Shown: piece by piece, positions 6,220 through 14,589 of the stretch
Layout: every line of letters begins with the position of its first letter
Position numbering within the stretch: position 1 is the first letter of the stretch
Assembly: GCF_011764425.1 (NCBI RefSeq)
Contig: NZ_BLPF01000005.1
Span: forward strand, 186,001-250,000
Reading direction: 5' to 3'
Length of the DNA stretch: 64,000 bases
Origin: Phytohabitans houttuyneae
GTDB taxonomy: Bacteria > Actinomycetota > Actinomycetes > Mycobacteriales > Micromonosporaceae
Notes under the pieces: generated by a model
What the model was told of the DNA's origin: nothing
Seen by the model: only the letters and a program-made list of their open reading frames with translations
The model's database searches: none
Program-made: the position numbers and the translations under genes

Positions 6220-8160
6220 ATGTGCGGAATTCTGGCTTTCTTCTCCACTCGGGGCGATGCGGGCGCTCACCGGGACGCGATAGCGGGCGCGCTGGAGTGC
6301 CTGCACCACCGGGGGCCGGACGAGACCGGCGTCGACGTCGTCGACGGCGACGCGGTCTTCGCGCACAAGCGACTGTCGATCATCGACGTGGAGTCGAGCC
6401 ACGAGCCGCTGTCGTACGCCGACGGCCGCTACCTGCTCACCTTCAACGGGGAGATCTACAACTACCTGGAGCTGCGCGAGGAGCTGGCCCGCGACCACGG
6501 CGCCGTCTTCGCCACCCAGGGTGACGCCGAGGCGGTGGTGGCCGGCTACCACCACTGGGGTGAGCAGGTGCTGACCCGGCTGCGCGGCATGTTCGCGTTC
6601 GTGATCTGGGACCGCCAGGAGCGGCGCGCGTTCGGCGCCCGCGACTACTTCGGCATCAAGCCGATGTACTACATGTCCGGCCCGGACGGCCTGTACCTCG
6701 CCTCGGAGAAGAAGGCGCTGCTGCAGCTGGCCGGCCAGCCGCCGGTCGACCAGGCCAGCCTCTCCCACTACCTGACCCTGCAGTACGTGCCCGAGCCCGG
6801 CACCCTGCACGAGGGGATCAGCCGCATCGGCTCCGGCGAGCTGCTGCGCTACACCCCGTCGGGCGGCGTCGAGGTGGAGCGGTGGTTCCGGCCGGTGTTC
6901 AAGCCGGCGCCGGTCGACGACGAGCGCAAGCTGTTCGACCGCATCCGCGAGACGCTGCGCGACAGCGTGCGCGTGCACATGCGGGCCGACGTGCCGGTCG
7001 GCGCGTTCCTGTCCAGCGGCATCGACTCGACCGCGATCGTCGCGCTGGCCCGCGAGTTCAACCCGAACATCCTGACCTTCACGGTCGGCTTCGACGTGGA
7101 GGGGTACTCCGAGATCGGGGTGGCCCAGGACTCGGCCCGCCACCTCGGCGTCACCACGATCCCGACGGTGATCGGCCCGCAGGACATGATGGACGCGCTG
7201 CCGAAGATCGTCTGGCACCTCGACGACCCGGTCGCCGACCCGTCGCTCGTGCCGCTCTACTTCGTCGCCAAGAAGGCCGCCGAGCACGTCACCGTGGTGC
7301 TGTCCGGCGAGGGCTCGGACGAGTTCTTCGGCGGGTACACGATCTACCGCGAGCCGCTCTCGCTCAACGCGCTCCAGCGGCTGCCCGACCCGATGCAGCG
7401 CGGGCTGCGCGCGGTCTCCCGGGTGATCCCGCAGGGGGTCAAGGGCAAGAGCTTCCTGGAACGGGGTACCACGCGGATCGAGGACCGGTACTACGGCAAC
7501 GCCCGCATGTTCGCCGAGTCCGAGAAGCGCGAGCTGCTGCGCCGCAACGACGGCTCCGTGCGGTACACCGACGTCACCGCACCGATCTACGCCGAGTGCA
7601 CGGACCTCGACGACGTGACCAAGATGCAGTACGTCGACCTGCACACCTGGCTGCGCGGCGACATCCTGGTCAAGGCCGACCGGATCTCCATGGCGCACTC
7701 GCTGGAGGTGCGCGTGCCGTTCCTGGACAAGGAGGTCTTCGAGGTCGCCTCCACGCTGCCGGTCGAGCTGAAGCTGCCGCCGCGCTCCACCGCGACCAAG
7801 TACGCGCTGCGCCGCGCGCTCGACGGCGTGGTGCCGCCGCCGATCGTCAACCGGCGCAAGCTTGGCTTCCCCACGCCGACCCGGGTGTGGCTGCGCGGCG
7901 AGATGTACGAGTGGGCCCGGCACGTGCTGGCCACCTCCGGCGCCGGTGACCTGCTGGATCTCGCGTACGCGCAGAACCTGCTGGAAGAGCACCGCCGCGG
8001 CGAGGCCGACCACTCCCGCAAGGTGTGGACGGTGCTGGTGTTCTGCGTCTGGTACGGCGTCTTCGTCGACCACACGATCGACCCGGGCATCGAGCGCAAC
8101 CCGTCCGCCCTGCTCACGAAGCCGGCACTCGCCTCGCCGGTCCAGCCGGCGGGTTGGTGA
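6220..8160 (+). CDS. asnB: Asparagine synthase (glutamine-hydrolysing)
   Basis: It makes asparagine from aspartate, ATP and glutamine in the cytosol. The open frame extends far upstream, but the class II glutamine amidotransferase needs Cys as its first mature residue, so the ATG at 6220 (M-C-G-I-L) is chosen over the ATG at 6211 and over longer starts. The product is 646 residues. The N-terminal glutaminase domain has LHHRGPDETG and FNGEIYNY. The synthetase domain has the PP-loop SSGIDS (about 265-270) and SGEGSDEFFGGY. It could act in primary metabolism or in amide formation on cell-surface or secondary products; family membership is clear, the exact acceptor less so. Confidence 0.9.
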   Translation: MCGILAFFSTRGDAGAHRDAIAGALECLHHRGPDETGVDVVDGDAVFAHKRLSIIDVESSHEPLSYADGRYLLTFNGEIYNYLELREELARDHGAVFATQGDAEAVVAGYHHWGEQVLTRLRGMFAFVIWDRQERRAFGARDYFGIKPMYYMSGPDGLYLASEKKALLQLAGQPPVDQASLSHYLTLQYVPEPGTLHEGISRIGSGELLRYTPSGGVEVERWFRPVFKPAPVDDERKLFDRIRETLRDSVRVHMRADVPVGAFLSSGIDSTAIVALAREFNPNILTFTVGFDVEGYSEIGVAQDSARHLGVTTIPTVIGPQDMMDALPKIVWHLDDPVADPSLVPLYFVAKKAAEHVTVVLSGEGSDEFFGGYTIYREPLSLNALQRLPDPMQRGLRAVSRVIPQGVKGKSFLERGTTRIEDRYYGNARMFAESEKRELLRRNDGSVRYTDVTAPIYAECTDLDDVTKMQYVDLHTWLRGDILVKADRISMAHSLEVRVPFLDKEVFEVASTLPVELKLPPRSTATKYALRRALDGVVPPPIVNRRKLGFPTPTRVWLRGEMYEWARHVLATSGAGDLLDLAYAQNLLEEHRRGEADHSRKVWTVLVFCVWYGVFVDHTIDPGIERNPSALLTKPALASPVQPAGW

Positions 8161-8449
8161 CCCGAACCGAGCAGGCCACGAGCAGGCTCGTCGGATGCCT
8201 CAAGCCGGGTGCGCCGCTTTCGTGGAAGGCTCCATCGGGTACCAGGTGGGTGCGTATCGTTTTCCCGCGGTTCCGGTTACCATCGACGACGTCGGCAATT
8301 GCTTGACAGACCTGACTCACGACCTGCAGCAGCTGCATCGTGTCCACACCGCACAACCCCTGCGTGAGGGCTACGAAGGCACCATGATCCTTGCTGTGGG
8401 CCGCGCCGGGAATACATAGTGACGCCTCGCCGGACGGTGGTCTCGACAG
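8161..8449. other. Intergenic region upstream of the SCO2524-like gene
   Basis: The 289 bases between asnB and the next gene hold no convincing ORF, tRNA or strong hairpin. The right end carries a possible promoter (listed separately). The composition is slightly less GC-rich than the flanking genes, which suits a regulatory region. Confidence 0.5.
8391..8418 (+). promoter_or_regulatory. Candidate sigma-70-type promoter for the SCO2524-SCO2522 operon
   Basis: TTGCTG at 8391-8396 and TACATA at 8413-8418 are separated by 16 bases and lie about 32 bases before the first ATG of the operon. Both hexamers resemble actinobacterial housekeeping promoter elements. This is motif matching by eye only. 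Confidence 0.3.
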
Positions 8450-10303
8450 ATGAGGATGCAGCCTCGCCAGCAGCTTCTTGAAGTGTGGCGGGCGACCGCC
8501 CGGTCATCCTTACAGGACGCCAAGTGGGTGTGGGGCGGCCGCGACCGGGCCAATTCGATCAGCGACGCCGAGCAGCTGCTCTGCCTGATGACACCGGCCA
8601 CCACTGTGGAGTCGTTCGCGCTCGACCAGCCGAATGCGACGGACGAGGACGTCGCCGGCTCGCTGCGCCTGCTGGGTGACCCGGTCGAGGTCCCGCAGCG
8701 ACTGGTCCGGATCCTGACGGAGTACATGGAGCGGTACACCGACGCCGAAGGCACGCCGATCTTCGCCGGTGACAGCTACTTCCGCAGCTCCGACCCGGAA
8801 AGGGAGCCGACCGACGCGCAGATCGCGCTCGACGTGGTCGACTCCTTCGCCATGTCCGTGACGCTGACGCTGGCCACGGTCGGTTTCCTGCAGGTCTTCC
8901 GGGCGGAGCTGCGCCGGGAGGACATCCTCGCCGAGGTCGACCGGCTCGCGGCCCTCGCCAGCACACGCCTCACCGCCGCGATGGTCGGCCTGCTGCGCAG
9001 CTTCACGGTCTCGGTGTTCGACGCCGACTCCCGCCCCGGCCGGGCGCTGGTGCGCACGGCAAACCAGAGCGGCCAGCCGTCGCGGCAGGTCGTCGACAGC
9101 CTCAGGCGGGCCCTGCGCCAGGTCAGCGCGACCCTCCGAGAGGTCACGATCGGTTCCGGTGCCGAGCAGGTGCTCGACCTCGACAACCCCAACCGCCTCT
9201 TCGAGTGCGGCTGGTCCTGGGGCACGGTCAAGGACGCGCCGGAGATCGTGCTGGAAGACAAGCGGATCGACATCGGCCGGCAGCGCGAAGGTGTCGCCGA
9301 GGCCGCGCCGTACCTGTACTTCACGGTGGTGGCGCTCGACGGTATCGCCGCGCTCTTCTCCGCGCGCACCCGAATCCTCGGCCTGCTCAACGAGGAGCAG
9401 CAGCGGCTCGCGCGTGCGTTGCAGCTGCGGTGGGACATCACCCAGCAGTACTGGTCGACGATCGCCTCGTTCGACCCGGTGCGGTGGCCGCTGGAGGACA
9501 TCCCGTGGCGCACCACCGACGAGACGGAAAACGACTACTACAGCCTCATGGTGAGCGCGGTGACCGTGCAGGAGCTGGAGAGCCGGCGCGGGTCCGATGT
9601 GGACCTCGCCCGGGTCGGCCGGGTCCTGGAGGAGCTGGGCAACCGAGGTCGGGTCACCCGCCGTCCGCTCGCGCAGGACGGCTCGCTCACGCTGCACTCG
9701 CCCGGGTTCACGTTCGAGCTGGTGGGCAGCGAGGAGCGGGGCGGGCCGAGACTGACCTGGCAGGCGTCCGACTTCTCGCCGCTGCTGCTCAAGCGCACAC
9801 TCCAGGTCGCCGGTGTGGTCCGCGACCCGGACCTGCGCGGGCGCCTGCTGGCCCAGTCCGACCTGGTGTGGGACCACCTGGTCAAGCGCCGGCTCACCGA
9901 CGGCAACGGGCGCGACCTGTGGGACCAGCCGGCCGCCGCGTTCGACCAGATCACCACCGTTGACGACGCCCCTTCGTGGTACTACACCGAGCGTGTCGTC
10001 GAGTGCCTGGTCGCGGCGGCAAACCTCGTCGGCCGTTCGCCGCTGCGCAGCAGCCAGCTCACCGAGCTGGCGGGCGACCTGCTCAACGAGGCCGACCACC
10101 TCTTCGACCGCGAGCTGATGGGCGGTGGCGGCGACGCCGGCCCCGCGCTGCGGCATGCCCTGCAAAACGCGCGGGCCAGCCTGCGCCGCGCCCGCCAGCT
10201 GCTCAGCGACCGCCCCGGCACGGCGTACGTGCTGGCCAGCGACGTGCTGCGCGAGCTGGACCGGCTCGCGGCGGCCCGGCAAAACGTGTTCGAGGCGGAC
10301 TGA
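8450..10303 (+). CDS. SCO2524-family protein of unknown function
   Basis: A 617-residue protein with no signal peptide or clear membrane segment, mostly predicted helical and rich in Arg, Leu and acidic residues. I recognise the opening (MQPRQQLLEVWRATARSS) and its context as the actinobacterial family named after Streptomyces coelicolor SCO2524; no biochemical role is known to me. ATGs at 8450 and 8456 are both possible, and the second has a GATGAGG upstream. The stop is followed directly by the GTG of the variant P-loop gene, so the two are probably translationally coupled. As the first gene of a tight three-gene operon it is likely to act in a complex with the ParA-like protein. Family assignment is from memory and should be checked by HMM search. 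Confidence 0.75.
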   Translation: MRMQPRQQLLEVWRATARSSLQDAKWVWGGRDRANSISDAEQLLCLMTPATTVESFALDQPNATDEDVAGSLRLLGDPVEVPQRLVRILTEYMERYTDAEGTPIFAGDSYFRSSDPEREPTDAQIALDVVDSFAMSVTLTLATVGFLQVFRAELRREDILAEVDRLAALASTRLTAAMVGLLRSFTVSVFDADSRPGRALVRTANQSGQPSRQVVDSLRRALRQVSATLREVTIGSGAEQVLDLDNPNRLFECGWSWGTVKDAPEIVLEDKRIDIGRQREGVAEAAPYLYFTVVALDGIAALFSARTRILGLLNEEQQRLARALQLRWDITQQYWSTIASFDPVRWPLEDIPWRTTDETENDYYSLMVSAVTVQELESRRGSDVDLARVGRVLEELGNRGRVTRRPLAQDGSLTLHSPGFTFELVGSEERGGPRLTWQASDFSPLLLKRTLQVAGVVRDPDLRGRLLAQSDLVWDHLVKRRLTDGNGRDLWDQPAAAFDQITTVDDAPSWYYTERVVECLVAAANLVGRSPLRSSQLTELAGDLLNEADHLFDRELMGGGGDAGPALRHALQNARASLRRARQLLSDRPGTAYVLASDVLRELDRLAAARQNVFEAD

Positions 10304-11224
10304 GTGCTCGTTTTCGCGACCTCTGACAAAGGTGGCACCGGACGGTCCGTCACCAGCAGCAACGTGGCGTACCGGCGGTCACTGCAGGGCAGCGACGTCT
10401 GCTACCTCGACTTCGACTTCGGCTCGCCCACGGCCGGCACGATCTTCAACGTCGACAATGCCGCCCGCGGCACCCGCTCGGGCAACGGGCTCCATTCGTA
10501 CCTGCAGGGTCGCGCCTCCGACCCCATCGCGGTGGACATCTGGACCGAGTCCGACCGGCCCAGCCTGCGGCACCGCCCGCCCGGCGCGGGCCGGCTCGTG
10601 CTCTACCCGGGCGACGCGGGTGGCAGCGAGTTCTCGCTGGAGGGCGACGAGGTGCGGCGGTGCATCCGGCTGCTGCGCCGCCTCGACGAGGAGTTCGACC
10701 TCTGCCTCGTCGACCTGAGCGCCGGCCGGTCGTACGCGACGGAGATGGTGCTGGCCGCGACGGCCGTGCCGGAGATGCGCTCGGTGACCGCCCGCTGGCT
10801 TGTCTTCCACCGCTGGACCCGGCAGCACATCATCGCGGCCAACGGCCTTGTCTACGGCCAGCGCGGGATCATCGAGGTCGGCAAGGACCGGGGGCACGAG
10901 GCGGTCGAGCTGGCCGACGCGATCCGCTTCGTGCGCACCGCCGTGGTCGACCCCAACTCCGACGAGCTGGCCGGCCTCCGCTCGTCCCAGATCGCCTGGC
11001 TGCGCGACTGCAACCGCGACCTGCAGGAGCTGGCCAGCCAGCGCAAGGTCGGCCGCACCACGATGCTCGGCGCGATCCCGCTCGACCCGGTCCTGCAGTG
11101 GCGCGAGCAGCTGATCTCCGACAACGACGTGTACGCGCGGCAGATCGCCAACCGCGAGACCGTGGACGCGTTCGAGACGCTCGCCAAGCGGCTGACTGAG
11201 GAAGCCGCGTGGGTGACCCTCTGA
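10304..11224 (+). CDS. SCO2523-family variant P-loop (ParA/MinD-like) protein
   Basis: This 306-residue protein has the fold signature of the ParA/MinD/SIMIBI ATPases. A deviant Walker A occurs at residues 9-15 as KGGTGRS, so the usual GK[ST] lysine is arginine while the signature first lysine is kept. The switch-like segments follow: CYLDFDFGSPTAG (about 31-43) and LCLVDLSAGRSY. It may bind nucleotide without normal hydrolysis, or work as a nucleotide-gated scaffold; this is inference. The GTG start abuts the SCO2524-like stop and the 3' end overlaps the next gene by 16 bases. I recognise it as the family called SCO2523 variant P-loop protein. A plasmid ParA is unlikely because no parB or centromere-like repeat lies nearby. 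Confidence 0.8.
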   Translation: MLVFATSDKGGTGRSVTSSNVAYRRSLQGSDVCYLDFDFGSPTAGTIFNVDNAARGTRSGNGLHSYLQGRASDPIAVDIWTESDRPSLRHRPPGAGRLVLYPGDAGGSEFSLEGDEVRRCIRLLRRLDEEFDLCLVDLSAGRSYATEMVLAATAVPEMRSVTARWLVFHRWTRQHIIAANGLVYGQRGIIEVGKDRGHEAVELADAIRFVRTAVVDPNSDELAGLRSSQIAWLRDCNRDLQELASQRKVGRTTMLGAIPLDPVLQWREQLISDNDVYARQIANRETVDAFETLAKRLTEEAAWVTL

Positions 11225-12177
11225 TCTCCGCCGACGCCATCTTCCGCGAGGCCGCCGCGGAGCGGCGGGTCAAGCGCGTGCCGCTGTCCCACCTGTCGAT
11301 CGAGCTCGGACACCTGTACATGGAGGACTTCGTGCAGGGGCCGGAGCGGCTGCGCGAGCAGTTCCGGCGGGTCGTGCCCTGGGCCGCGGCGGCGCGGCAG
11401 AGCTGCGTCGACCGCCTGCCGGTCAAAAAGGCGCGGATCAGCACCTGCTTCCTGATCGACGACTACTTCACCCGCTTCAAGTCGCCCAGCGAGGTGATCC
11501 CGGTCGTGATAGACGTCGCCCGGGAGTGCGGCCTGGAGATCGACTACCTGGCCCGCGAGTCGGGCTGCGCCAAGGCGGACGGCGTGCCGCTGGCCCGCCT
11601 GGTGGAGGGGCGCATCGTGCCCGACCCGCCGCCGGACACCAACGGCTCCCGCCCGCCGGTGACCGAGTCGGGCTGGCTCTCCAACGGGCAGCGCTCGCCG
11701 GTGAGCGGCTCGCCGGAGGCGATGGGCGCGGTGGTCAAGTGGCGGCCACCGGCGCAAAACGCGGCCAACCGCCACTCGATCTTCGTGGATGTCGAGCTGT
11801 GGGACGAGGGCCGCGGCGGCCGCACCTGGTCGTGCTCCTTCCTCGCCGCGGTGTGGCAGCTGCTGCGGCTCGGCATGCTGCGCAACGAGGGCGAGCCGGT
11901 GGCGGTGCCGCAGCCCTGGAGCGGCGACTACCCGGGCGACTGGGACCAGCTGCCCGCGGTGATCAGGCTCAACCCGTCCGCCACGCCCTTCAACGCGTAC
12001 GAGACGATGTCGGTGCTGCCATCCCGCTTCCTGCCGATCGAGATCGCGGTCCGCACGATCCTCAGCCAGGTCTGGCCCGACCAGGACGTGAGCAGCCAGC
12101 TGCGGGAGCTCGCCGAGCGCGACGGCGTCCGGATGCCGGCCGAGCTTGTCGACCGCCTGACCTACGCGTTCGTCTAG
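11209..12177 (+). CDS. SCO2522-family protein of unknown function
   Basis: A 322-residue protein, third in the operon, starting at a GTG that overlaps the P-loop gene by 16 bases. Its N-terminus contains RVKRVPLSHLSIELGHLYME and the middle is proline-rich (about 140-170). No enzyme motif, signal peptide or membrane span is evident. I recognise it as the family named after SCO2522, which is found beside the SCO2523 and SCO2524 families in actinobacteria. The tight coupling implies a shared complex or pathway with the ParA-like protein. Function is unknown; assignment rests on memory of the family and on gene order. Confidence 0.72.
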   Translation: MGDPLISADAIFREAAAERRVKRVPLSHLSIELGHLYMEDFVQGPERLREQFRRVVPWAAAARQSCVDRLPVKKARISTCFLIDDYFTRFKSPSEVIPVVIDVARECGLEIDYLARESGCAKADGVPLARLVEGRIVPDPPPDTNGSRPPVTESGWLSNGQRSPVSGSPEAMGAVVKWRPPAQNAANRHSIFVDVELWDEGRGGRTWSCSFLAAVWQLLRLGMLRNEGEPVAVPQPWSGDYPGDWDQLPAVIRLNPSATPFNAYETMSVLPSRFLPIEIAVRTILSQVWPDQDVSSQLRELAERDGVRMPAELVDRLTYAFV

Positions 12178-12410
12178 CGGACACGATCCAAGCCCAAACA
12201 GCTGCGGGCTACCGCGACGTCCGCCGTGGTCCGGACCGTTGCTCCCGCGGCCTCACCGTCCGCGAGGGTCGGGCTTGGCCCGCGGACCTTGCAGCGGAGG
12301 CCGGGGAAGTCGGCGAGCGCCAGCTCGCCGCCGGCCGGAGCGGTCCCCGCGGGAGCGTGCGGTCCGCAGCTGACGCGGACCGGGGCACAGCTGTGCTGGA
12401 TCCGCACGGG
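12178..12410. other. Short gene-free stretch between convergent genes
   Basis: These 233 bases separate the SCO2522-like and SCO2521-like stops. A 77-codon frame on the minus strand has no family look and is rejected. No strong terminator hairpin was found here. Confidence 0.4.
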
Positions 12411-13339
12411 TCAGGACTGGCCGCTGCCGGCCTGCGACTGGCCCAGCATGGCCATCGTGCCGGCGGCGATCTGGTCGCGGATCCGGTTGACCGAGGCCAT
12501 CCACTGCCGGGTCATGCCGGGCCGGCGCTCGAGCGCGTCCCAGACGGAGCGGTCGATCCGGGCGGCCGGCATCCAGAGGTGCAGCAGGTGGTCGATGGCC
12601 GGGCCGAAGCGGCGGACCACGAGCGCGCGCGGCACGGCCCCGATGTCGCTGGCCTCGATCAGCGACTGGAGGGAGGTTAGCAGCCAGTCGTGCAGCGCGA
12701 TGTCGGCGCAGATCTCGGCGATGGCGGCCGGCGGGCGGTCGTCGAGGGACAGGCGCAGGGTGCGCAGGCCGCGCTCCTCGATCGTGAACTGGACCCGGCC
12801 GGGCTGGTCGCCGGCCAGCGCGACCCACCGCAGCTTCGTGCGCGCGGTGCGCAGGGGCGTCTTCTGGTCAAGCTCGGGCGAGGCCTGCACCTGGTGCATG
12901 ATCTCGGCGCAGATGGCGCCCAGGTCGAGGATGCCCGGCGGGCTCGCCTCGGCCAGGAAGCTGAGGGCGAGGTCCTGCCGGTCGACCTTGCCGAGCGTCT
13001 CGATCATGCCGGCCCGCGCCAGGTAGTGCGGCCAGGAGAGGCGGCGGTCGACGTCGCTGCTCCGCACCTGCGCGTAGGCCAGGCCCTGCAGCACGTGGCC
13101 GCCGGTGATCGCGGCCTGGTTGACCACCGTGCCGATCGCGCGGTGCCGCGCGCCCGAGGCACCGGCCAGGCGGCAGTCGACGCCGCGCAGCTGCTCGGGG
13201 AGACCGCGTACGGCAGGGGGCGCTCCGAGCGGCGCACCCGCTCGCCGTCGACAAGGCTCAGGACGCGGGCGGCGCGGTCCGACGAGACCGAAGTGGAGTT
13301 TCGGAGAAATCCAGTGTGGACCTCGCCCAGTATCAGCAT
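12411..13339 (-). CDS. SCO2521-family protein, frameshifted
   Basis: The gene starts at an ATG with GGAGG five bases upstream. The first 47 codons (MLILGEVHTGFLRNSTSV and on) are in one frame. The rest (EQLRGVDCRLAGASGAR onward) is in another, with the switch at the four-base run 13197-13200. Adding one C in the coding strand restores a 309-residue protein reading through SPEQLRGVDC. I recognise the restored protein as the SCO2521 family, the fourth member of the SCO2521-2524 set. Here it converges on the other three rather than being co-transcribed. The role is unknown and no catalytic motif is evident. The break looks like a homopolymer undercall, because both halves keep good coding quality. 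Confidence 0.7.
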
Positions 13340-13453
13340 CGTGCCTCCGCCGTCCGTTGGACGGGTTAACCGTACTGGACGTCCCGGCTCTGCTCGGGGT
13401 AGCCGTCGCCAGCTGCCACAGCCCTTCGAACCGCGCCGTACGGGCCACACGAA

Positions 13454-13506: not shown

Positions 13507-14589
13507 CTAGGCGGCCGAACAACTCAGTGTCGGTGCCGTGCTCGGTCCATTCGCGACGAAGCCGAACGTCGTCGACGCGCCCGCGTTCAGCGCGCCGTTG
13601 TGACCGGCGTTCCGCACCGTCAGGTTTGGTGCCGAGCCCGACTGCGAACCGTTCCAGAGGCTGTTGACGCTCTGGCCGGACGCGAGCGTCAGGCCGACCG
13701 ACCAGCCGGCGATGTTCGCCGTGCCGCTGTTGCGGACGGTGACCTCACCCTGGAAGCCGCCGTTCCACGAGCCGACCGAGCGGTACGTCGCCGAGCAGGC
13801 GCCGGTGCCCGGGTTCGGGCCCTGCGTCGTCGGGTTCGGGCCGGGGGTGCTCGTGGTGGGCGGGGGCGACTGCGTGCCCTGGCCGGGGCCGATGCCCGTG
13901 ACCTGGCCGTTGCCGCCGTCGAAGGTCACGTCGGAGCAGCCGAAGAAGTTTTCGGCACTGTCCGAGCGGACCCAACGCGAGTAGATGATGTGGCGGCCGC
14001 TCTTACCCGACGGCAGGTTGCCGGAGAAGTAGTAGTGGCCGTCGTTGGTGCCCACCGCGCCGCGCTGGGGCGGGTTGGTGACCGTCAGGAACGGAGTGGA
14101 CTCGAGGTCGCTCCAGTTCAGCGCCCGGGTCGGGCTCCAGTTGTTGTTGGTCACGTAGAAGTAGAACGTCCCCGGGTGGTGAGCCCAGTTGCTGTAGCGG
14201 AACTCGATGTTCGCGCCCGCTGTCAGGTGCGTGAGCGGCCAGTCGTTGCGGGCCAGGTTGTACGCCGAGAACGTGGAGTTGCCGCCGCTGCACAGCTGCC
14301 CGTCCGGCACGAAGCCGGTCGTGCGGCCAGCCGCGTCGGAGCGCAGGACGCTGAACCAGTTGTACAGCGGGTTGGCGCCGCCCTGGGCGACCGCGGCCTG
14401 GCAGGCCGGGTTGTTCGGTTGGATCTGGCCCGTGGACGAGAGGCCGTCCTTCCAGCACAGGAAGGTCCGGCTGCCGGGCACCATCGCGGCGCCGTGCGCC
14501 TGCGCCGCGCCGGGCGTGATCACCGTGATGATGCCAGCGGCCACCACAGCGACGGCGGCGGCAGCCGCTGCCCTGCGTAGAAGTTTCAC
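13507..14589 (-). CDS. AA10 lytic polysaccharide monooxygenase with CBM2
   Basis: This 360-residue secreted copper enzyme oxidatively cleaves crystalline cellulose or chitin. A signal peptide (residues 1-31) ends AQA|HGAAM, exposing the N-terminal His of the copper histidine brace. The second brace His lies in SNWAHHPGTF. The core (about 32-235) most resembles cellulose-oxidising LPMO10C/CelS2-type enzymes, for example LYNWFSVL and the NFFGCSDVTFDGGNGQVTGI end. A Pro/Thr/Gly linker (about 240-265) leads to a C-terminal CBM2 (CSATYRSVGSWNGGFQGEVTV, with conserved Trp). The start is GTG with GGGAG six bases upstream. Cellulose rather than chitin is the likelier substrate, inferred from sequence resemblance only. 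Confidence 0.93.
   Translation of the reverse strand: MKLLRRAAAAAAVAVVAAGIITVITPGAAQAHGAAMVPGSRTFLCWKDGLSSTGQIQPNNPACQAAVAQGGANPLYNWFSVLRSDAAGRTTGFVPDGQLCSGGNSTFSAYNLARNDWPLTHLTAGANIEFRYSNWAHHPGTFYFYVTNNNWSPTRALNWSDLESTPFLTVTNPPQRGAVGTNDGHYYFSGNLPSGKSGRHIIYSRWVRSDSAENFFGCSDVTFDGGNGQVTGIGPGQGTQSPPPTTSTPGPNPTTQGPNPGTGACSATYRSVGSWNGGFQGEVTVRNSGTANIAGWSVGLTLASGQSVNSLWNGSQSGSAPNLTVRNAGHNGALNAGASTTFGFVANGPSTAPTLSCSAA

Follow-up and report, generated by a model that had tools for sequence, protein, structure and literature searches.

A probably decayed copy of the SCO2521–SCO2525 gene module in Phytohabitans houttuyneae and a putative membrane pseudo-phospholipase D partner in its relatives

Actinomycetes have a mycelial habit. 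In soil actinobacteria, one conserved gene set, for whose function there is no explanation, encodes the SCO2521 to SCO2525 families (NCBIfam models NF040564–NF040568, bearing Streptomyces coelicolor names); relatives of SCO2524 are widespread, being encoded on 433 stretches in our searches. SCO2525 belongs to a family of S-adenosylmethionine methyltransferases and matches the NNMT_PNMT_TEMT model. Three papers describe a sco2521-sco2526 operon under HupS control, with SCO2525 needed for normal growth in S. coelicolor (PMC11472566), a morphogenetic role there for SCO2525 (PMC6344877) and SCO2525 mutagenesis treated beside metH (PMC3017869). In the open-licence literature we found no mechanism for the SCO2521–SCO2525 genes and no paper on DUF6879, a domain of the membrane protein discussed below. 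Here we analyze the copy of this gene set that lies in a 64,000-nucleotide stretch of the Phytohabitans houttuyneae genome (assembly GCF_011764425.1, contig NZ_BLPF01000005.1, positions 186,001 to 250,000; hereafter the window).

The best overall reading of the locus is that it is a decayed copy of a membrane-tethered, nucleotide-gated signalling module, to which we assign a probability of about 0.5. The window resembles the module of its relatives in that its genes are recognised by the family models and stand in the same order (2525-2524-2523-2522). It differs from that module in lacking the membrane partner and most of SCO2525, in having a split SCO2521, and in carrying a dispersed repeat in the slot of the membrane gene (Table 1). 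An earlier note, made from the sequence alone, had described three plus-strand open reading frames and assigned these and a fourth gene to the SCO2524, SCO2523, SCO2522 and SCO2521 families. The frames were as described, i.e. the GTG of SCO2523 abuts the SCO2524 stop and SCO2523 overlaps SCO2522 by 16 bp, and all four proteins passed the NCBIfam cut-offs (300 bits for SCO2524, 200 for SCO2523, 200 for SCO2522 and 150 for SCO2521; 240 for SCO2525). The window SCO2524 is 43–79% identical to its relatives, the nearest named one being that of Phytohabitans maris (79%).

The composition of the usual module is well supported: profile searches make it very probable that it comprises SCO2525, SCO2524, SCO2523, SCO2522, SCO2521 and a membrane protein with a degenerate phospholipase D (PLD) domain, hereafter pseudo-PLD. 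In a sample of 197 genomes of the class, for each of which at most the best ~11 candidates were scored, SCO2524, SCO2522 and SCO2521 were each found in an identical set of 21 genomes at adjacent coordinates, and SCO2523 was present at the locus in all 21. These genomes span 5.3–11.3 Mb (that of the window has 11.3 Mb in 5 contigs). SCO2525 scored above its cut-off in 12 of the 197, every one among the 21, and a weaker full-length SCO2525-like gene was found in four class genomes including that of the window. Profile searches for SCO2523 and SCO2524 in 198 genomes of the phylum found both above cut-off in the same four genomes, with weak SCO2523 matches in 39 more. The proposal of the earlier note that the set travels together was therefore borne out, and no separate occurrence of the families was seen, save that SCO2525 is often lacking. 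The membrane protein was found in 16 of the 197 class genomes, all within the 21, and in none of the other 176 (Fisher p 1.5e-19, uncorrected for kinship); the five of the 21 with no match were G000 (the host of the window), G050, G245, G313 and G353.

Gene neighbourhoods were compared in the best 80 of the 433 stretches, which come from a collection with one genome per species and represent some genomes twice. As only the best 80 were retained, this set is tilted towards Micromonosporaceae and Streptosporangiaceae. Using profiles built in the analysis, we counted SCO2523 in 80 of the 80 loci, SCO2522 in 79, SCO2521 in 78 (L129 is without it and the contig ends in L130), adjacent SCO2525 in 41 (in L142 a reversed SCO2525 lies 1.2 kb off), the membrane protein in 68 (counted if above 250 bits or over more than 150 profile positions), a DUF4062-NACHT-HEAT-type protein in 8 and a DAO-family oxidase in 37 (counted above 300 bits only; matches of neighbouring genes at 26–46 bits, mainly in Streptosporangiaceae loci, were left uncounted). 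The genes are tightly coupled: the SCO2524-SCO2523 junction measures -4 to +7 bases in the 76 loci with both genes called, and the SCO2523-SCO2522 spacing is at most 30 bases in 68 of 71. SCO2521 is reversed in 38 of the 80 close loci, mostly in Micromonosporaceae. We therefore rejected the suggestion that its reversal in the window is a purely local oddity, although among the 21 class genomes the window's own is indeed the sole case. Across families, no further gene recurred beside the module in the neighbour clusters, which included no search aimed at ParB or MinE.

A SCO2524 tree (81 rows, built by a quick method, with several long branches flagged) required four changes of host family for five families, i.e. 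the minimum possible, whereas on the same tree the content of the membrane-gene slot changed six times and the presence of SCO2525 six times. A link between SCO2525 and pseudo-PLD was considered, since all 41 loci with an adjacent SCO2525 also had the membrane protein, as against 27 of the 39 that lack one (uncorrected p 6.5e-5). It is not claimed, because the tree disagrees: the two changed together in only 2–3 of 6 independent pairs (sign test p 0.25–0.5), and genomes G378 and G380 are exceptions.

Against this background, comparison with relatives makes it highly probable that the window holds a partly decayed copy, in which about half of the parts have been lost or damaged. The pullulanase, Xaa-Pro aminopeptidase, asparagine synthase and lytic polysaccharide monooxygenase (LPMO) genes on its flanks are collinear with those of P. 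maris (L066, L148), and in each of the five Phytohabitans genomes that were compared the module is bordered by the asparagine synthase and LPMO genes. The interval between asparagine synthase and SCO2524 is ~660 bp shorter than in P. maris (window 8141–8237 versus L148 7212–7971), and the start of SCO2525 is lost. What is left corresponds to positions 183–247 of 249 in our own SCO2525 profile, the first ~180 codons being gone, and scores below the family cut-off; with the P. maris copy as tblastn query it falls into two frames, 8169–8222 and 8210–8413. The gene is therefore not simply absent, as the earlier note had supposed. A full-length, distant SCO2525-like methyltransferase gene lies elsewhere in the host genome (G000:C3:1066693-1067394, L044; 134.4 bits, below cut-off), with no pseudo-PLD profile match in the surrounding 14 kb.

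The fourth gene of the earlier note is, as it had said, a minus-strand SCO2521, but not the single open frame from 13339 that it had described. Positions 1–51 of our own 312-position profile match at 13187–13339 and positions 47–309 at 12429–13202, in different frames that join near 13187–13202; with NF040565, positions 43–300 fall in one frame and 1–46 in the other. The single-frame open reading frame here (12411–13448) has an N-terminus unrelated to the family. SCO2521 is thus a broken member, above cut-off from one frame and with no single open frame that spans the profile.

The slot between SCO2522 and SCO2521, in which P. maris has the membrane gene, measures 233 bp and, unlike that of the usual module, contains neither a pseudo-PLD gene nor a replacement. 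Profile searches found no membrane pseudo-PLD in the window or, with the best 11 of 33 candidates scored, in its own genome. The oxidase gene and the second pseudo-PLD gene, which P. maris has upstream of SCO2521 on the side of the LPMO gene, are also lacking in the window. Within the family both the oxidase and the first membrane gene are common, so that a single loss here requires less than several independent gains; the second pseudo-PLD gene, by contrast, may have been acquired in P. maris. The ~60-bp repeat in the slot had at least 43 matches among those listed in its own genome (best 40 of 505 first-look candidates scored), with copies also in P. maris and G378. Twenty copies were aligned, and the family is like the repetitive extragenic palindromes (REP) or miniature inverted-repeat transposable elements (MITE).

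A starker explanation is that the whole locus in P. houttuyneae is a pseudogene cluster whose function is gone, to which we give almost even odds. The truncated SCO2525, the two-frame SCO2521 and the missing membrane and oxidase genes all suit it. SCO2524 was found in five of six Phytohabitans genomes; among the five other than the host of the window, two have it split and one gave no match. Decay of the module may therefore be under way throughout the genus, or some of the assemblies may contain errors. However, the window SCO2524, SCO2523 and SCO2522 each keep an open frame and reach scores as high as those of other copies, and the break in G378 (89% complete) may be due to sequencing errors.

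Table 1. Coordinates of module genes and remnants in the window (positions of the 64,000-nucleotide stretch), and of two slot proteins in other loci.
Feature	Position	Strand	Evidence
SCO2525-family methyltransferase remnant	8169..8419	+	NF040568 positions 178-241, 50.5 bits; last ~80 codons, two frames
SCO2524-family protein, 617 aa, intact	8450..10303	+	NF040567, 906 bits
SCO2523-family SIMIBI/MinD-like protein, 306 aa, P-loop KGGTGRS	10304..11224	+	NF040564, 503.9 bits
SCO2522-family protein, 322 aa, alpha/beta fold	11209..12177	+	NF040566, 462 bits
Scar in slot for membrane pseudo-PLD gene (~1 kb in relatives)	12178..12410	.	233 bp here
~60-bp dispersed GC-rich repeat, one copy	12208..12265	.	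blastn matches in relatives
SCO2521-family gene, C-terminal five sixths, open frame	12411..13202	-	own profile 366 bits; NF040565, 304.6 bits
SCO2521-family gene, N-terminal part, other frame	13187..13339	-	NF040565 positions 1-46, 40.2 bits; own profile 56 bits
Large DUF4062/HEAT slot proteins with NACHT matches	L070:13816-18174, L143:13759-17949	-	

The membrane protein that is missing from the window is a new element of the module, a regular component of it for which the NACHT-type protein can stand in. Five copies scanned gave no NCBIfam match, while DUF6879 (PF21806) scored above cut-off in 5 of 11 copies. At least two N-terminal hydrophobic segments are predicted in 21 of 30 aligned copies and one in the other nine. 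In an AlphaFold2 model (predicted local distance difference test, pLDDT, 86.7; predicted template modelling score, pTM, 0.69), long helices are followed by a C-terminal alpha/beta domain, to which Foldseek matched 87 PDB chains at E ≤ 0.001, e.g. Nuc (1byr; E 1.4e-7, probability 1.00, target TM 0.72). The likeness in fold extends to the PLD superfamily, DUF6879 and FAM83/DUF1669 (E 1e-5 to 1e-7). Sequence profiles pointed the same way: when 73 C-termini were aligned by hhalign with 25 PLDc_2 domains taken from relatives, the result was 90% (E 1.6e-6), compared with 0.1–0.7% for four control families. The protein differs from the PLD superfamily in its N-terminal hydrophobic segments, its long helices and its degenerate HKD motif. 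In the columns of the catalytic HxKxxxxD motif, as placed by the hhalign alignment of 73 of the 78 genes (five without a start motif were left out), the histidine is replaced by Leu, Val, Met, Phe or Ile in 71 of 73 (the other two are unlisted), whereas all 73 have Asp in the lysine column and all 73 keep the aspartate. The membrane partner has therefore the PLD fold and not its catalytic motif, and is likely to be a non-catalytic PLD-like sensor or scaffold. In L163 its gene sits within the operon, between SCO2523 and SCO2522. Two loci carry extra gene pairs of a pseudo-PLD and a SCO2525-like methyltransferase, 13 and 229 bp apart (L137:18025-19687 and L128:5742-7134).

In the eight loci with the DUF4062-NACHT-HEAT-type protein, all from one clade of Micromonosporaceae, the membrane protein was never present, and neither protein was found in L124, L127, L129 and L130. 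Pfam scans of two of the eight found DUF4062 and HEAT above cut-off in both and NACHT in one (44.4 bits versus 23.3 bits; cut-off 26.7); the other six were assigned by our own profile. In two Phytohabitans genomes, G378 and G380 (loci L146:5376-6336 (+) and L147:11194-12123 (-), respectively), a different open frame of ~310 aa occupies the slot, and the G380 frame (L147 copy) had no Pfam or NCBIfam match.

An exchangeable slot beside a constant core, containing proteins of this kind, raises the alternative that the module is a phage-defence or conflict system, in which SCO2524, SCO2522 and SCO2521 would sense or carry a signal, SCO2523 would be the switch and the slot protein the effector. We consider this rather unlikely, and rank it second after a membrane-tethered nucleotide switch acting in development. 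The patchy presence of the module (21 of 197), its membrane-linked partner and the domains of both scanned slot proteins are in keeping with defence, and one locus of the 80 (L110) sits on a contig titled plasmid. PADLOC-DB gave weak matches, i.e. 17.4 bits for SCO2523 and 12.6–17.5 bits for the two NACHT-type proteins (mad8, RT_UG22 and PtuA1), and with none above 17.5 bits they do not place the module in a known anti-phage system. On the other hand, SCO2524, SCO2522 and the single-frame SCO2521 ORF had no match in PADLOC-DB at E values up to 1, and the same held, at E values up to 0.1, for one copy of SCO2525 and four of pseudo-PLD. Neither IMG/VR (in a search for close relatives) nor the PLSDB plasmids or INPHARED phages yielded a relative of SCO2524. 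The SCO2524 tree, moreover, tracks host families, and the flanking genes are constant in Phytohabitans.

The proposed switch, SCO2523, had been called a SIMIBI-type nucleotide-binding protein in the earlier note, and this description agrees with weak matches of its first 50–115 residues to Mrp/MinD-type proteins (PF10609, 25.2 bits, cut-off 27.1). Like the MinD/ParA/Mrp proteins (the SIMIBI deviant Walker A group), SCO2523 has an invariant KGG signature lysine and a DxD...PT region (YxDxDxGxPT, which fits in 104 of 105 copies; some of the 105 come from duplicate loci in a single genome). It departs from them in scoring below the curated cut-offs of general models and in its P-loop, where the lysine of the Walker A motif KGGxGK[S/T] of MinD/ParA ATPases is replaced by arginine in all 105 copies (KGGTGRS in 103, KGGTGRT in two). 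The KGGVGR-motif variant AAA ATPase family (NF047398) shares, by its name, the motif arginine, but its model gave 38.2 bits against a cut-off of 90; no paper on KGGVGR or on a 'variant P-loop' was found in the open-licence literature. The substitution suggests that SCO2523 binds nucleotide and hydrolyses it poorly, and makes the family an instructive example of a SIMIBI protein in which fast hydrolysis has probably been lost.

The substitution also bears on the proposal of the earlier note that the module may be a positioning or assembly system. As a ParA/MinD-type system, it would place a cargo in the hypha. The Mrp/MinD-type matches, the invariant KGG lysine and the membrane partner would suit such a system. 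However, with arginine in the P-loop of all 105 copies it is doubtful whether the ATPase cycle behind ParA/MinD patterning operates, and no neighbour recurrent across families emerged from the clusters, in which no search aimed at ParB or MinE was made; we regard positioning as improbable.

The remaining members gave fewer clues. SCO2524 and SCO2521 are without known domain. For SCO2522, an AlphaFold2 model (pLDDT 81.6, pTM 0.81) matched no solved fold at E 0.001; the best match was arginyl-tRNA synthetase (2zue) at E 0.04, with further weak matches to tRNA synthetases, a universal stress domain and NcsA. We take these folds to be of the HUP type, and a HUP-type fold of SCO2522 is offered as a lead only. 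Seven residues (E32, H35, D85, D112, R116, E117 and C120) do not vary across 27 rows; a resemblance of SCO2522 to the ELGH/HIGH motif was considered and is not claimed. Profile searches against PDB sequences gave no match for SCO2522 or SCO2521, and only short or chance-level ones for SCO2524 and the membrane protein. Homology among these members was rejected on hhalign values of 0.3% for SCO2524 versus SCO2521 and 1.1% for SCO2522 versus the membrane protein.

The conserved polar residues of SCO2522 and its weak likeness to nucleotide-handling folds would also suit a pathway for the modification of a small molecule or peptide, in which the SCO252x proteins would be enzymes, alongside the methyltransferase, an FAD oxidase and the nearby asparagine synthase. 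The NNMT_PNMT_TEMT match of SCO2525 and the two neighbouring enzyme genes fit such a pathway. However, the oxidase adjoins the module in fewer than half of the loci, the asparagine synthase was seen beside it only in Phytohabitans and roughly every second locus has no adjacent SCO2525, and we hold this explanation to be very improbable.

In the signalling module that we prefer, SCO2523 would bind ATP and act as a dimeric switch, hydrolysing slowly or not at all, by which SCO2524, SCO2522 and SCO2521 are kept assembled. Membrane anchor and sensor would be the pseudo-PLD protein, without phosphodiester cleavage, and the SCO2525 methyltransferase an output or tuning enzyme, so that the outcome of the complex would be control of growth and development. 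That the proteins form a membrane-tethered nucleotide-gated complex at all has, in our estimate, slightly less than an even chance, and a role for the module in developmental signalling is tentative. Several observations weigh against these proposals. Not only hydrolysis but also the binding of nucleotide may be abolished by the P-loop arginine. An adjacent SCO2525 is lacking in 39 of the 80 loci, and in 9 of the 21 class genomes the family does not score above cut-off, so that SCO2525 cannot be the sole output; the membrane protein is missing in 12 of the 80 loci and 5 of the 21 genomes; and G378 and G380 have SCO2525 with a different slot protein. The patchy distribution of the module is unlike that of core development genes, and a NACHT-HEAT-type slot protein suits a conflict system better than development. 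The two frame breaks in the window could be assembly errors, although the missing stretches are harder to explain in this way.

The broader possibility, which we consider doubtful, is that the module is an undescribed signalling machine of actinomycetes, tethered to the membrane, with an arginine-P-loop MinD-like switch and an exchangeable output slot, filled by a pseudo-enzyme that senses lipids or nucleic acids or else by a NACHT-type protein of the STAND (signal transduction ATPases with numerous domains) class. If true, this would link bacterial development to immune-like modules. Recognition of the membrane partner with its pseudo-enzyme fold, and of its NACHT-type replacement, turns the gene set into a concrete candidate complex, for which the choice between development and defence is testable.

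Two minor observations concern the surroundings of the module. The LPMO encoded beside the window locus (13507–14589, minus strand) carries a CBM2 cellulose-binding domain. In Streptosporangiaceae, a run of genes upstream of SCO2524 (neighbour clusters 8–12) is recurrent, being seen at L088:4148-9679 and in ~20 similar loci.

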